Positions 20,790-24,573 of a stretch of DNA of 64,000 nt are shown one piece after another. The position numbers were made by a program, and so were the translations under genes. Numbering within the stretch: position 1 is the first letter of the stretch; every line of letters starts with the position of its first letter. This stretch comes from Microbacterium suwonense (GTDB lineage: Bacteria > Actinomycetota > Actinomycetes > Actinomycetales > Microbacteriaceae), in the NCBI RefSeq assembly GCF_030296555.1, contig NZ_AP027728.1, positions 2,170,001 to 2,234,000 on the forward strand, read 5' to 3'. Below the pieces are notes generated by a model. The model made no database searches and had not been told where the DNA came from. It saw nothing but the letters and a program-made list of their open reading frames with translations.

Positions 20790-21152
20790 TCAGGAGATGG
20801 AGAAGGTGAGGGCGAGGCCGAGGGCTGCAGCGGCCAGGCCCGCCAGCAGCATCCCGCCGGAGTAGAGCACGGATGCCCGGCGCTCGCCGTCCCGCCACAG
20901 CGCGACCGTGTCGACCATCGCCGTGCTGAAGGTGGTGTACCCGCCCAGGAAGCCCGCCCCGACGACGAACGCGGCGTCGGGCAGCATCCCCACCACGAGA
21001 CCGAGCACCAGCGAGCCGGTGACGTTGACCACGAGCACGCCCCAGGGGAATCGGGTTCCCGCCACGCGGGCGATGCCGACGTCGACCAGATAGCGCACGG
21101 CCGCGCCCAGGCCGCCGCACACCGCGGCGAGTGCGAACACGAGCGGACTCAT
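20790..21152 (-). CDS. crcB: Fluoride exporter CrcB/Fluc, subunit 1
   Basis: A 120-residue four-helix membrane protein of the fluoride channel family, protecting cytoplasmic enzymes from fluoride. The conserved GFLGGYTTFSTAMVD and the polar Asn of VLVVNVTGS are present. It overlaps the second crcB by four bases (ATGA), the arrangement of actinobacterial heterodimeric Fluc channels. No fluoride riboswitch is visible upstream of the pair. Confidence 0.92.
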   Translation of the reverse strand: MSPLVFALAAVCGGLGAAVRYLVDVGIARVAGTRFPWGVLVVNVTGSLVLGLVVGMLPDAAFVVGAGFLGGYTTFSTAMVDTVALWRDGERRASVLYSGGMLLAGLAAAALGLALTFSIS

Positions 21153-21538
21153 GCCGTCGCCCGATCGCGTCCGAGGCGCCCGAGCCGCATTCCGAGCACA
21201 GCCGCTGCGACCCCACCCACCAGGCTGACCACGACGTACCCAACGGCCAGCAACGGCGCCTCACCCCACAGCCCCACGCTGTCGACGGTGAACGCACTGT
21301 AGGTGGTGAATCCGCCGAGCACTCCCGTTCCGAGGAACACCCGCAGGTCCGATGCGGGCAGCCGCGCGGCGAGGATGCCGAGCGCCAGTGCGCCCGCGAG
21401 GTTGGCGAGCAGCACGCCCAGCGCGGCATCCGGGATCAGCATCCCGATCCCGAGACGGGCGGCGGTGCCCAGCATCCCTCCCAGTGCCGCCAGTCCGGCG
21501 CGCCGGAAGACGATGCGCGCAGGCGTCGGGGAGCTCAC
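21149..21538 (-). CDS. crcB: Fluoride exporter CrcB/Fluc, subunit 2
   Basis: A 129-residue partner of the 20790-21152 product, forming the pore as a heterodimer. It has four hydrophobic segments with GVLGGFTTYSAFTVDS and ANLAGALALG. GTG 21538 is preferred over GTG 21547. TAGAGT (21546-21551, minus) overlaps the codon of the longer form and stands seven bases before the shorter one, giving a leaderless mRNA. Confidence 0.9.
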   Translation of the reverse strand: MSSPTPARIVFRRAGLAALGGMLGTAARLGIGMLIPDAALGVLLANLAGALALGILAARLPASDLRVFLGTGVLGGFTTYSAFTVDSVGLWGEAPLLAVGYVVVSLVGGVAAAVLGMRLGRLGRDRATA

Positions 21539-21660
21539 CCGCGACACTCTAGTCGTGGCGGCTCGGCGACGTCCGCACTCACGGCGACGTTACGTAGACT
21601 CGTGGAACGGCTGACCGCTCCGCCCGAAAGAGCGCACACCGCCAGGAGGACGAAGCCCGC

Positions 21661-22377
21661 GTGCTGACGAGAAGGATCTTCGGATGGCTCCGTCTGCTCA
21701 CGGCGGCCGCGTGCCTCGTCGCGCTCACGCACCGGATGCTGTGGGGCATGGGATCTCAGACCCTGGCCAGCGACAACTTCTTCGCCTACCTGACGATCCA
21801 GTCGAACCTCGCCTTCGCGGTCGTGACGATCGTGGCGGGTGTCATGGCGCTGCGCCATCCTCGGGATCCCGTCTGGCTGACCTCACTGCGCGCCCTGGTG
21901 CTGAGCTGGACGGTCACGGCGGGGCTGGCGTTCTCGATCATCGTCTGGCAGGCGGGTGTGCGCGGCATCCCGATCACGGTTCCCTGGTCGGATGTCGTGC
22001 TGCACTACGTGCTTCCGGCGCTGTCTGTGGTCGCCTGGCTGATCGGTCCCGGCCGGCGGGCGGTGTCGTGGAGGGTGCTGCCTTTCGTGCTGCTCTACCC
22101 GCTGATCTGGGGAGTCTTCACGATCTGGCGGGGCCGGATCATCGGCTGGTATCCGTACTACTTCCTCGACCCGCGCCAGGTGTCCGGACTGCCGGAGATG
22201 GCGGTCTCGTGCCTGGCTGCGCTGTCGATCTTCGCCGTGGTCGGCTCGCTGCTGGTTCTGCTCAGCCGTGTGCGCGTCACACTCCCACCGTGGGGCGAGA
22301 TCAGCTCTCGTCCGTCTGCTCCGGTGCGAAGACGGCGAGCGCCTGCCTGGCGGCGGCCCGTGCATCCCGGTCGTTGA
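21661..22377 (+). CDS. Pr6Pr-family integral membrane protein
   Basis: A 238-residue protein with about six membrane helices. NFFAYLTIQSNLAFAVVTI, WSDVVLHYVLPALSVVAWL and YPLIWGVFTIWRG match the Pr6Pr/FAR-17a-like family, whose function is unknown. GTG 21661 follows AGGAGGA by ten bases and a -10 box TAGACT at 21595-21600. The last 25 residues (SSRPSAPVRRRRAPAWRRP) are Arg/Pro-rich and overlap the amine oxidase gene on the other strand by 77 bases, so the true end may differ. Confidence 0.75.
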   Translation: MLTRRIFGWLRLLTAAACLVALTHRMLWGMGSQTLASDNFFAYLTIQSNLAFAVVTIVAGVMALRHPRDPVWLTSLRALVLSWTVTAGLAFSIIVWQAGVRGIPITVPWSDVVLHYVLPALSVVAWLIGPGRRAVSWRVLPFVLLYPLIWGVFTIWRGRIIGWYPYYFLDPRQVSGLPEMAVSCLAALSIFAVVGSLLVLLSRVRVTLPPWGEISSRPSAPVRRRRAPAWRRPVHPGR

Positions 22378-23683
22378 GCCCTGAGAACTGCTCGGCGTCG
22401 GCACCGCCGACGATTCCGACCAGCACCGGCTCGCCGGTGGCGGGCATGAGGTTGATCCAGGTGCGGATGAGTCCGTCGCCTCCGACGACGTGCCAGATGG
22501 CCTGCTCGGCCTCCCAGAACGGCTCGTCGAACCGCATCCACACCGTCTCGATGAATCCGGATGCCAGGGCCGCGATCGCGCCGCGATGCGAGAACGGCAG
22601 CGCGGGGGCGAACTCGATGCCCTGCCGCTGCAGCACCCCCAGCGGTGCAGTGACGATCACCCGGTCGAACGAGAGCGCTTCGCCGGTGCCCAGCCGCAGG
22701 CTCACACCGCTGTCGTCGTAGGCGACGCGCACGACGGGTGAGGCCAGCGTGATCTCGAGGTCTTCGAGGTGCGTGTCGAAGAACGCGCCGAGATCCTCGG
22801 TCAGCCCGGTGAGAGCATCGGCGTGGAAGTCCGGCGGATACCAGCTCGAGGCCTTCGCCGGGTCGACGCCGGTCGTGGCGGACAGCCAGGCGAGCGCTGC
22901 GGTGAGCGCGGGGTCTTCCAGGTCGGCACCGTTCTGCTCGAGCGCCTCGGTGAGCGGGATGTCGGCGGGAAGCTCCTCGGCCTTCTCCACGGCCTGCACG
23001 ATCGCGTCGCCGTCGACGGAGTCGGTCTCACCGTCCTTCGACCAGCCGGTCGCGGTGTCGAAGGTCAGCTGTTCCTCGCCCAGGGCGGTGAGCCGGTTGC
23101 CCAGCGCGGTGAGCTGCTCGTCCGGGATCAGCCAGGCGCCCAGCTGCGCGGGAATCGGCCATTCCTCCGCGCTCTGGCTGAGGATGCGTCCGCCCGAGCG
23201 CTCGCGCGCCTCGAAGATCGTCACGTCGTGATTGGCATCGGCCAGCAGTCGCGCCGCCACGACGCCGGCGGCACCGGCACCGATCACGGCGACCCGCTCC
23301 TGCCCGGATGCCGCATCGATCAGCGCGAGCGCGGCGGAATGGCCGGAGTCCACGGCGCCGAGCACGGTGCCAGGGTTGGTGGCATCCAGCGCTTCGCCCG
23401 CGAAGAACAGCCGTTCCTGGATGGGTTCGGTGAGCGTCTCACGCTGCTGCGGGTCGGATCCGGATGCCAGGTAGCTGACCGCGCCGAAGGAATACGGATC
23501 GGTCGACCAGGTGCTGCGCAGCCAGGCGGCGGGTGCGGGCACGCGCGACGGTGCCGTCGGCTTGGGCTTCGGCGTGCTGCTGCGTGTCGGCTTGGGCTTC
23601 GGCTCCGGCGTGCATGCGGCCAGGAGCACCGCGGCGGCACCGGTGCCGGCGCCGAGCAGCAGAGTGCGGCGAGTGATGCTCAT
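22301..23683 (-). CDS. Lipoprotein flavin amine oxidase with circularly permuted domain order
   Basis: A 460-residue predicted FAD-dependent oxidoreductase anchored outside the membrane (lipobox LLAAC, Cys24). Standard flavin amine oxidases begin with the FAD-binding GxGxxG and end with a W-x2-DPY...GSY...FFAGE...GA..SG segment. Here that terminal segment comes first, at residues 54-122 (WSTDPYSFGAVSY, RLFFAGEA, GTVLGAVDSG). The FAD motif VAVIGAGAAG (135-140) and FEARERSGGRI follow, and the protein stops where a normal one would enter the tryptophan segment. One unbroken frame with its own signal supports a real permutation. A short leader follows TAGTCT (23693-23698). Substrate unknown. Confidence 0.85.
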   Translation of the reverse strand: MSITRRTLLLGAGTGAAAVLLAACTPEPKPKPTRSSTPKPKPTAPSRVPAPAAWLRSTWSTDPYSFGAVSYLASGSDPQQRETLTEPIQERLFFAGEALDATNPGTVLGAVDSGHSAALALIDAASGQERVAVIGAGAAGVVAARLLADANHDVTIFEARERSGGRILSQSAEEWPIPAQLGAWLIPDEQLTALGNRLTALGEEQLTFDTATGWSKDGETDSVDGDAIVQAVEKAEELPADIPLTEALEQNGADLEDPALTAALAWLSATTGVDPAKASSWYPPDFHADALTGLTEDLGAFFDTHLEDLEITLASPVVRVAYDDSGVSLRLGTGEALSFDRVIVTAPLGVLQRQGIEFAPALPFSHRGAIAALASGFIETVWMRFDEPFWEAEQAIWHVVGGDGLIRTWINLMPATGEPVLVGIVGGADAEQFSGLNDRDARAAARQALAVFAPEQTDES

Positions 23684-23720
23684 CGTCCAGCCAGACTACC
23701 CGGGCCGGCTCTCCTCTCCG

Positions 23721-23779
23721 TTCGTGTAGCTCAAGTTGCTGCCTCCGACCGGTTTCCAGAGCAACTTGAGCTACACGAA
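23721..23779. repeat. Long hairpin, family B (copy 1)
   Basis: Perfect 20-base arms TTCGTGTAGCTCAAGTTGCT (23721-23740) and complement (23760-23779), loop 19 bases. A degenerate relative lies at 24656-24714, so the pair flanks the merR gene. Confidence 0.8.
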
Positions 23780-23784
23780 ACGGA

Positions 23785-24573
23785 TTACAGGTTCGCTTCC
23801 GCGTAGACCCGCAGGGTGTCGCGGACGAACTCGGCGCCCGCGGTGCCTCCCGCAGCGGTGGCGTAGTTGGCGCCGAAGCGCGGGTCGGCGACGTACATCT
23901 CGCCGAGGCCGATCACGTAGCCCTTCACATTGCCGCCGGGAGCGGCGGCCGGGGTGCCAGGGATGCCGGTGAGCCAGTCGACGTGGCGCTGCGCGAGCGC
24001 CTGCGCCGCATCGGATGCCGGGTCGATGCCGCTCTCAGCGGCGGCGACCCAGTCGCGCCCGAGATCCGCGACGCGCCGCTGCCACGCGGCACGTTCGTCC
24101 TCGGTGAGGCCGCGCCACCAGCTGTCGCTGTCGGCGTAGGCCTTCGTTCCCCAGCGCTGCTCGACCTCCTCCTTGTACTGCGTGTGGTCGAAGCCGTCGA
24201 ACATGTTCTCGGCCATGATGTCCTTCCTCTCTGTCAACGCGGTGATGGTCGATTCGACGGATGCGATCTGCCGGGCGATCCGCTGCTGCTCCTGGCGGAG
24301 CCAGCCGAGATGCGTCCGGAGAGCGGATGCCTCGGATGCTCCGGATGCTCCGCCCGATGCTGGATCCAGCACCTCGGCGATCTGCGGCAGGCCGAGCCCG
24401 AGCTCGCGCAGCAGCAGGATGCGCTGCAACCGCACGAGGGCGTCCTGGTCGTAGTGCCGGTAGCCGTTGCCCGCGATGCGCGAGGGCGTGAGCAGGCCGA
24501 TGTCGTCGTAATGACGCAGCGTCCTGCTCGTGGTTCCCGCCAGTCGGGCGATCTCCTGGATCGACCAGTCCAT
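23785..24573 (-). CDS. MerR-family regulator with TipAS ligand domain
   Basis: A 262-residue transcription factor. The N-terminal winged helix (IQEIARLAGTTSRTLRHYDD) is followed by a dimerisation coiled coil and a C-terminal TipAS domain (FDHTQYKEEVEQRWGTKAY onward). In TipA this domain binds thiopeptide antibiotics and other multidrug ligands. ATG 24573. Its own promoter at 24610-24640 has MerR architecture, so autoregulation is likely. The target genes are not obvious. Confidence 0.9.
   Translation of the reverse strand: MDWSIQEIARLAGTTSRTLRHYDDIGLLTPSRIAGNGYRHYDQDALVRLQRILLLRELGLGLPQIAEVLDPASGGASGASEASALRTHLGWLRQEQQRIARQIASVESTITALTERKDIMAENMFDGFDHTQYKEEVEQRWGTKAYADSDSWWRGLTEDERAAWQRRVADLGRDWVAAAESGIDPASDAAQALAQRHVDWLTGIPGTPAAAPGGNVKGYVIGLGEMYVADPRFGANYATAAGGTAGAEFVRDTLRVYAEANL

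Follow-up and report, generated by a model that had tools for sequence, protein, structure and literature searches.

We analysed a 64,000-nucleotide stretch of the Microbacterium suwonense genome (contig NZ_AP027728.1, positions 2,170,001 to 2,234,000 of the forward strand; hereafter the window) and observed that one of its genes encodes a flavin amine oxidase-like lipoprotein of 460 amino acids, in which the segments of the fold follow a circularly permuted order. From sequence comparisons we consider it fairly probable that this protein is a membrane-tethered, flavin adenine dinucleotide (FAD)-containing lipoprotein of a permuted branch of PF01593, that it does not carry out the classical O2-dependent oxidation of amines, and that it belongs to a redox module linked to a membrane protein of the Pr6Pr family encoded by the adjoining gene. 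An initial annotation of this DNA had proposed a functional permuted amine oxidase exported as a lipoprotein; the size of the permuted family and the linked Pr6Pr gene are additions to it.

The amine oxidase sequence is circularly permuted

The M. suwonense protein (the query) matched PF01593 with an E-value of 4.3e-46 (158.5 bits against a cut-off of 19.8) in three stretches, which along the chain correspond to profile positions 367-442, 2-49 and 201-370 and are thus not in the canonical order. The GxGxxG, GGR and FAGE motifs are all present and conserved (G135, G137, G140, G164-R166 and E97). After the linker, the motifs appear as W59..D62-P-Y-S-F-G-A-V-S-Y71, RLFFAGEA (91-98), GTVLGAVDSG (105-114) and VAVIGAGAAG (131-140). 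The initial annotation correctly had the tryptophan segment at the front and recognized the latter motif; the moved segment is slightly longer than it proposed (about residues 48-125 rather than 54-122), and the full motif spans residues 131-140, the 135-140 given for it being GAGAAG only. Its remark that the chain stops where a standard enzyme would enter the tryptophan segment holds for residues 191-460, which end at that point.

In the PDB, the amine oxidase domain of LSD1/KDM1A and LSD2/KDM1B was the closest match by both sequence and fold. LSD2 was matched in permuted blocks: query residues 46-116 on 698-768 (independent E-value 2e-6) and 256-441 on 486-683 (1.4e-11), together with a Rossmann block, 128-170 on 336-378, that is weak when taken alone (0.0053). 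A relative, L127, matched LSD2 in three blocks that are each significant separately (85-162 on 698-775, 166-258 on 335-428 and 340-504 on 524-694). The permuted protein has the Rossmann, substrate and C-terminal segments and the FAD motif in common with LSD1 and LSD2. Unlike them, it has a rearranged segment order, lacks the catalytic lysine and the cage tyrosine, and is a predicted exported bacterial lipoprotein; the extra LSD domains of those two proteins are presumably not part of it.

We scanned rotated versions of the query, with cut points stepped by 3, against a profile of length 428 built from 71 canonical-order relatives. In native order, the best single alignment of the query scored 172.0 bits (profile positions 4-344), and the maximum, 261.3 bits over positions 4-424 of 428, was reached when the chain was cut at residue 124. 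A gain of 78-121 bits was seen in 10/10 permuted proteins tested. The canonical controls, themselves part of the profile, were best in native order in 3/3 cases. For P0142, L135, L138 and L131 the cut point is not sharply placed, since their best single rotated alignment begins only at profile positions 145-160. The result of the rotation goes far beyond chance and, with the permuted PF01593 blocks, argues for a true circular permutation at the sequence level, as initially annotated. The fold of the query was predicted confidently, with a predicted local distance difference test score (pLDDT) of 83 and a predicted template modelling score (pTM) of 0.82. Alignments and the predicted model together show the moved Trp/FAGE strand-helix segment joined by its last helix directly to the first Rossmann strand; the VIA structural rows cover model residues 119-457 only, and both the VIA and Foldseek aligners follow chain order.

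The permuted order is conserved among homologues

Homologues with the same order, for which the initial annotation had suggested a search, make up 239/240 of the matches listed, the remaining one being a fragment. With the query, the best 120 of 844 homologues comprised 119 permuted proteins and this fragment; when a divergent permuted alignment served as the query, 120/120 of the best 120 of 5170 homologues were permuted. Since both lists are ordered by resemblance to a permuted query, they demonstrate that the order is conserved but do not indicate how common permuted proteins are among amine oxidases in general. When the best 120 of 844 were first checked by regular expressions, 92 scored as permuted, 28 as undecided and 0 as standard. 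The ratio of nonsynonymous to synonymous substitution rates (dN/dS) was 0.05-0.31 across nine gene pairs, indicating purifying selection.

A rearranged order could also come from an assembly artefact, or from a pseudogene produced by a local rearrangement. We found no supporting evidence for either, and this explanation is refuted by the conservation of the order in independent genomes. It is also at odds with the location of the gene in a genome assembled as a single 3.16-Mb contig and with dN/dS values well below 1, and we regard its probability as negligible.

The FAD site is retained while the catalytic lysine and cage tyrosine have drifted

We aligned 435 non-identical sequences, consisting of 209 from the subfamily of the query (its close homologues and the Microbacteriaceae loci), 155 other permuted proteins and 71 canonical ones. 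G135, G140 and R166 are present in 435/435, and E97 in 209/209, 155/155 and 69/71 of the three groups, respectively. Lysine at position 380 was found in 11/209 subfamily rows, in 146/155 other permuted rows (the other 9 have arginine) and in 70/71 canonical rows; threonine predominates at this position in the subfamily (168/209) and is the residue of the query (T380). An aromatic residue at position 69, where the query has V69, is present in 19/209, 154/155 and 69/71, respectively. Position 380 aligns with the lysine of LSD2 and, through L127, with that of LSD1. We take it to be Lys661 of LSD1 and Lys300 of maize PAO, and position 69 to be Tyr761 of LSD1. The roles of Lys661 and Tyr761 are among the matters treated in PMC3184146. 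The nine permuted proteins in which arginine replaces the catalytic lysine include P0126, P0131, L119 and L154 along with five more.

In a 61-row tree that includes more genera, the subfamily accounts for 52 rows, 45 of which lack the lysine, and is separate from 9 rows with an intact lysine and tyrosine. The lysine label needs 7 changes on this tree, 2 of which are forced by its starred branches; therefore, the requirement for the lysine seems to have been relaxed inside the subfamily, not lost once for all. G135 and R166 are present in 61/61 rows, and E97 is glutamate in 59 and aspartate in 2. As judged from these alignments, the lysine of the lysine-water-flavin arrangement and the tyrosine of the aromatic cage drifted while the FAD-site residues stayed nearly fixed.

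These data do not favour the functional amine oxidase-type enzyme of the initial annotation, given that both hallmarks are lost in the query (T380 and V69) and in most of its subfamily. Classical amine oxidation appears less likely for the query, and likely for the permuted relatives that keep both residues. Among the latter, the proteins of Euzebya rosea (P0142/L128), Streptomyces (P0159) and Nitratireductor (L135), and g13, g39 and g68 from further Microbacteriaceae genera, have the same permuted order but keep the lysine and the tyrosine. The query could still be a working, exported amine or polyamine oxidase if another residue or a water network took the place of Lys380 and other side chains that of the cage. 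The strong PF01593 match and the conserved FAD site would fit such an enzyme, as would the lysine (146/155, the rest arginine) and the tyrosine or tryptophan (154/155) of the permuted relatives outside the subfamily, and the lysine kept in 7/52 subfamily rows of the genus-spread tree. However, both residues are missing from the query itself, and the replacements at position 380 are highly diverse (T, S, A, V, L, R, Q, M), which makes a compensated oxidase unlikely in our view.

The permuted gene is linked to a Pr6Pr gene in Microbacteriaceae

The gene that converges on the permuted gene encodes a membrane protein matching NCBIfam NF038065 (Pr6Pr) with 106.4 bits against a cut-off of 30. A Pr6Pr gene adjoins the permuted gene in 20/20 Microbacteriaceae loci with flanks of up to 5 kb (16 of the same genus and 4 of others); at one of these loci (L220) it lies about 1.9 kb away. 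A locally built Pr6Pr profile was positive in 88/90 Microbacteriaceae locus records, some of which hold the same gene twice; the two missed were L023, where the partner is 1.9 kb away, and L053, which is at a contig end. Among 20 further genera, 16 have a Pr6Pr neighbour. The contigs of three others (g45, g13 and g68) end within about 0.5 kb, and g39, with 4-kb flanks, is truly devoid of this neighbour. The proteins of g13, g39 and g68 retain the lysine and the tyrosine and are placed outside the subfamily. Outside the subfamily, a Pr6Pr neighbour was absent at 18/18 permuted loci, some of which have short flanks, and where the profile may miss a distant Pr6Pr; the permuted relatives with an intact site at these loci and at g39 thus differ from the query in this respect also.

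Co-occurrence was analysed in 149 genomes of the genus: 58 have both genes, 1 has the oxidase only (G108, at a contig end), 0 have only the Pr6Pr orthologue and 90 have neither (Fisher test, 5e-41, uncorrected for kinship). Pr6Pr matches are bimodal in the genus, with orthologues at E-values of 4.2e-52 or below and the next match at 2.8e-31; 68 further genomes, including G108, hold only the distant paralogues. The gap between the match ends of the two genes has a median of 46 bp and is below 500 bp in 55/58 cases.

At four loci (L066, L068, L070 and L075) a second, more distant Pr6Pr-like open reading frame (ORF) is present on the other side of the permuted gene. A FAR-17a/AIG1 (PF04750) identity of the neighbour, considered from the motif YLTxxxN...H, was not supported, as no match was obtained in the whole genome at E-values up to 10, and PF04750 was not found in the 3 Pr6Pr proteins searched. 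Our literature search found no paper naming Pr6Pr.

That the protein has lost both catalytic hallmarks but kept its FAD site, and that it is tightly paired with a membrane protein, would also suit a pseudoenzyme, i.e. an FAD-stabilised cell-surface scaffold or receptor domain that performs no redox chemistry. Purifying selection alone does not separate such a protein from a redox protein. The conserved FAD site and the invariant residues of the substrate half would, however, be costly to keep for a structural purpose only, and we judge the pseudoenzyme to be improbable.

The permuted protein has a Tat-type lipoprotein signal

The N-terminus of the protein, MSITRRTLLLGAGTGAAAVLLAAC, has R5R6 and a lipobox ending in Cys24 (MSITRRTLLLG...LLAAC24). 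R5, R6 and C24 are invariant across 30 alignment rows. Both the RR motif and the lipobox are present in 115/119 complete close homologues, the other 4 having no N-terminus, and the genome encodes TatC of the twin-arginine translocation (Tat) system (182.2 bits; the search covered TatC among the Tat components). These observations agree with the leader proposed in the initial annotation. Loose regular expressions applied to the best 120 of the 5170 homologues obtained with the divergent query scored an RR-like motif in 99 and a lipobox-like site in 55; 5 of the 120 are short. The permuted protein is, therefore, probably exported in folded form with FAD by the Tat route, and a lipid on Cys24 probably anchors it outside the membrane.

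Canonical-order bacterial oxidases with an RR leader (L107-L110, L164 and L174) likewise have the RR motif, a cysteine in a lipobox-like site and a PF01593-type core. They differ in their canonical order; among the 71 canonical rows, 70 have the lysine and 69 have tyrosine or phenylalanine in the cage.

The permuted family is widespread and may have a single origin

The query was matched in 59/149 genomes of the genus, and the subfamily profile in 138/398 genomes and 32/85 genera of the family; 4 of these 138 matches (G453, G360, G335 and G160) begin at profile position 106 or later, and the order was checked for the fetched loci only. Searches at the levels of order, class and phylum extended the range to other families, orders and classes of Actinomycetota, where permuted proteins occur alongside canonical ones. 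Among 80 loci from named genomes, 24 have a permuted protein, L166 with a canonical one as well, 55 have canonical ones only and 1 (L204) is unclassified. The permuted loci include those of Acidimicrobiaceae, other actinobacterial metagenome-assembled genomes (MAGs), Nitratireductor, Devosiaceae, Hyphomicrobiales, Roseovarius, Sphingomonadaceae and one gammaproteobacterial MAG; many of the locus records derive from MAGs, and in some cases the label appears mistaken (e.g. 'Bifidobacterium breve', L199). The family thus spans Actinomycetota and reaches Pseudomonadota.

This permuted family is apparently large and undescribed. Source annotations name its members 'FAD-dependent oxidoreductase', 'flavin monoamine oxidase family protein', 'monoamine oxidase', 'polyamine oxidase' or 'hypothetical protein'; none of these names reflects the permutation or a possible change in chemistry. 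We found no paper on circular permutation in the flavin amine oxidase fold in the open-licence literature, and none on Microbacterium lipoprotein oxidases in the literature search. To our knowledge, large two-domain flavoenzymes have rarely undergone circular permutation in nature.

Some loci showed unusual arrangements. At L166:2185-4775, a permuted oxidase and a canonical-order amine oxidase are encoded by convergent genes placed end to end. Two mycobacterial loci (L178:3505-7296 and L191:3396-7254) each encode two nearby canonical-order amine oxidases on the same strand, of which one has an RR leader and the other is divergent. A permuted clade (L100, L102, L103 and L207) has no evident signal peptide, its start codons being guessed, and has tryptophan for the cage tyrosine; its members are possibly cytoplasmic permuted oxidases.

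We scanned 1709 ORFs and found no protein carrying the moved segment at both ends, as an intermediate of the duplication and trimming suggested in the initial annotation would, among the 464 ORFs (repeats included) with both segment and Rossmann matches. The origin of the order was examined in a quick tree of 131 rows and in a hand-picked subset of 65 rows (66 rows dropped), 35 of them permuted, under the simpler LG+G4 model. The free 131-row tree needs 6 changes of order, its starred branches forcing at least 2, and the free 65-row tree needs 7; these counts would be expected if the permuted order arose several times. In the 65-row set, however, starred branches force only 1 change, and the best tree uniting the 35 permuted rows has a log-likelihood 28.24 above that of the free tree (p 0.739 in the approximately unbiased (AU) test). 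An AU p above 0.05 does not establish a clade. One origin is, hence, the simplest reading of the trees, not proven, and repeated origins appear rather less plausible to us.

Features of the locus

The coordinates of the permuted gene, its segments and its partner are given in Table 1. The CrcB pair, RND pump and TipAS regulator that neighbour the two genes are found only at the loci of closer relatives. The CrcB-family (fluoride channel-like) genes are adjacent, with a 4-base overlap, on the minus strand at window positions 20790-21547. Between the TipAS regulator and the permuted gene lies a perfect inverted repeat (23726-23774; arms of 15 bp were searched and are longer in the fold), the exact pattern of which occurs at one place in the genome. 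The region 23715-23790 folds with -42.3 kcal/mol (z -8.6); it may be a terminator, an attenuator or a remnant of a mobile element.

Table 1. Features of the permuted gene and its Pr6Pr neighbour (positions in the window)
Feature	Position	Strand	Remarks
Pr6Pr-family (NF038065) membrane protein gene	21661..22377	+	Convergent; 3' overlap with the last 77 bases of the permuted gene
Circularly permuted flavin amine oxidase-like lipoprotein gene	22301..23683	-	ORF of 460 aa
Residues 1-24, Tat-type (R5R6) lipoprotein signal, lipobox LAAC, Cys24	23612..23683	-	From the sequence
Residues 25-47, Pro/Lys-rich tether	23543..23611	-	Low predicted confidence over most of its length
Residues 48-125, front-placed segment that ends canonical flavin amine oxidases (W59, D62, FFAGEA, E97, GTVxGA)	23309..23542	-	
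Residues 126-190, Rossmann FAD-binding unit that opens canonical enzymes (VAVIGAGAAG 131-140, E158, GGR 164-166)	23114..23308	-	
Residues 191-460, substrate domain and second part of the FAD domain	22304..23113	-	Chain end at the canonical entry to the Trp segment
V69 codon, position of the aromatic-cage Tyr	23477..23479	-	Through the LSD2 alignment
T380 codon, position of the catalytic Lys	22544..22546	-	From the alignment

Discussion

In a branch of PF01593, the C-terminal Trp/FAGE segment moved to the N-terminus and was joined to the Rossmann unit, as the sequences and the predicted secondary structure show; the members of this branch mostly have Tat-like signals and are probably exported folded with FAD. 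One permuted subfamily of Microbacteriaceae is linked to the neighbouring Pr6Pr membrane protein. In our most likely working model, the M. suwonense protein was recruited from a permuted amine oxidase, its redox chemistry has changed and it works together with Pr6Pr. Its substrate may be a compound derived from lipids or the envelope and delivered by Pr6Pr, or the two proteins may exchange electrons. A more far-reaching version is that a branch old enough to span several actinobacterial classes and reach Proteobacteria gave rise in Microbacteriaceae to an extracytoplasmic FAD lipoprotein that abandoned amine oxidation, and that this lipoprotein and the six-helix Pr6Pr depend on each other as a two-gene module for redox or substrate relay; we consider this version tentative, at somewhat less than an even chance.

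Several points weigh against the proposed model. We infer FAD binding, export and any activity of the permuted protein. The FAD site is not quite fixed, because E97 is replaced by aspartate in 2 of the 61 rows of the genus-spread tree. Pr6Pr-linked members of several genera retain the lysine and/or the aromatic residue, and hence amine oxidation may not have been lost throughout. The linkage itself could be mere inheritance of a neighbourhood, as adjacent genes are lost together and the genomes are not independent. The predicted model of Pr6Pr is weak (pLDDT 65.9) and gave no fold match at E-values of 0.001 or below.

The permuted family constitutes a natural test of the tolerance of the amine oxidase fold to relocated termini, and it records the erosion of the active-site lysine and tyrosine around a nearly fixed FAD site. 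The linkage of its Microbacteriaceae members to Pr6Pr would also provide a functional handle on this family of membrane proteins.
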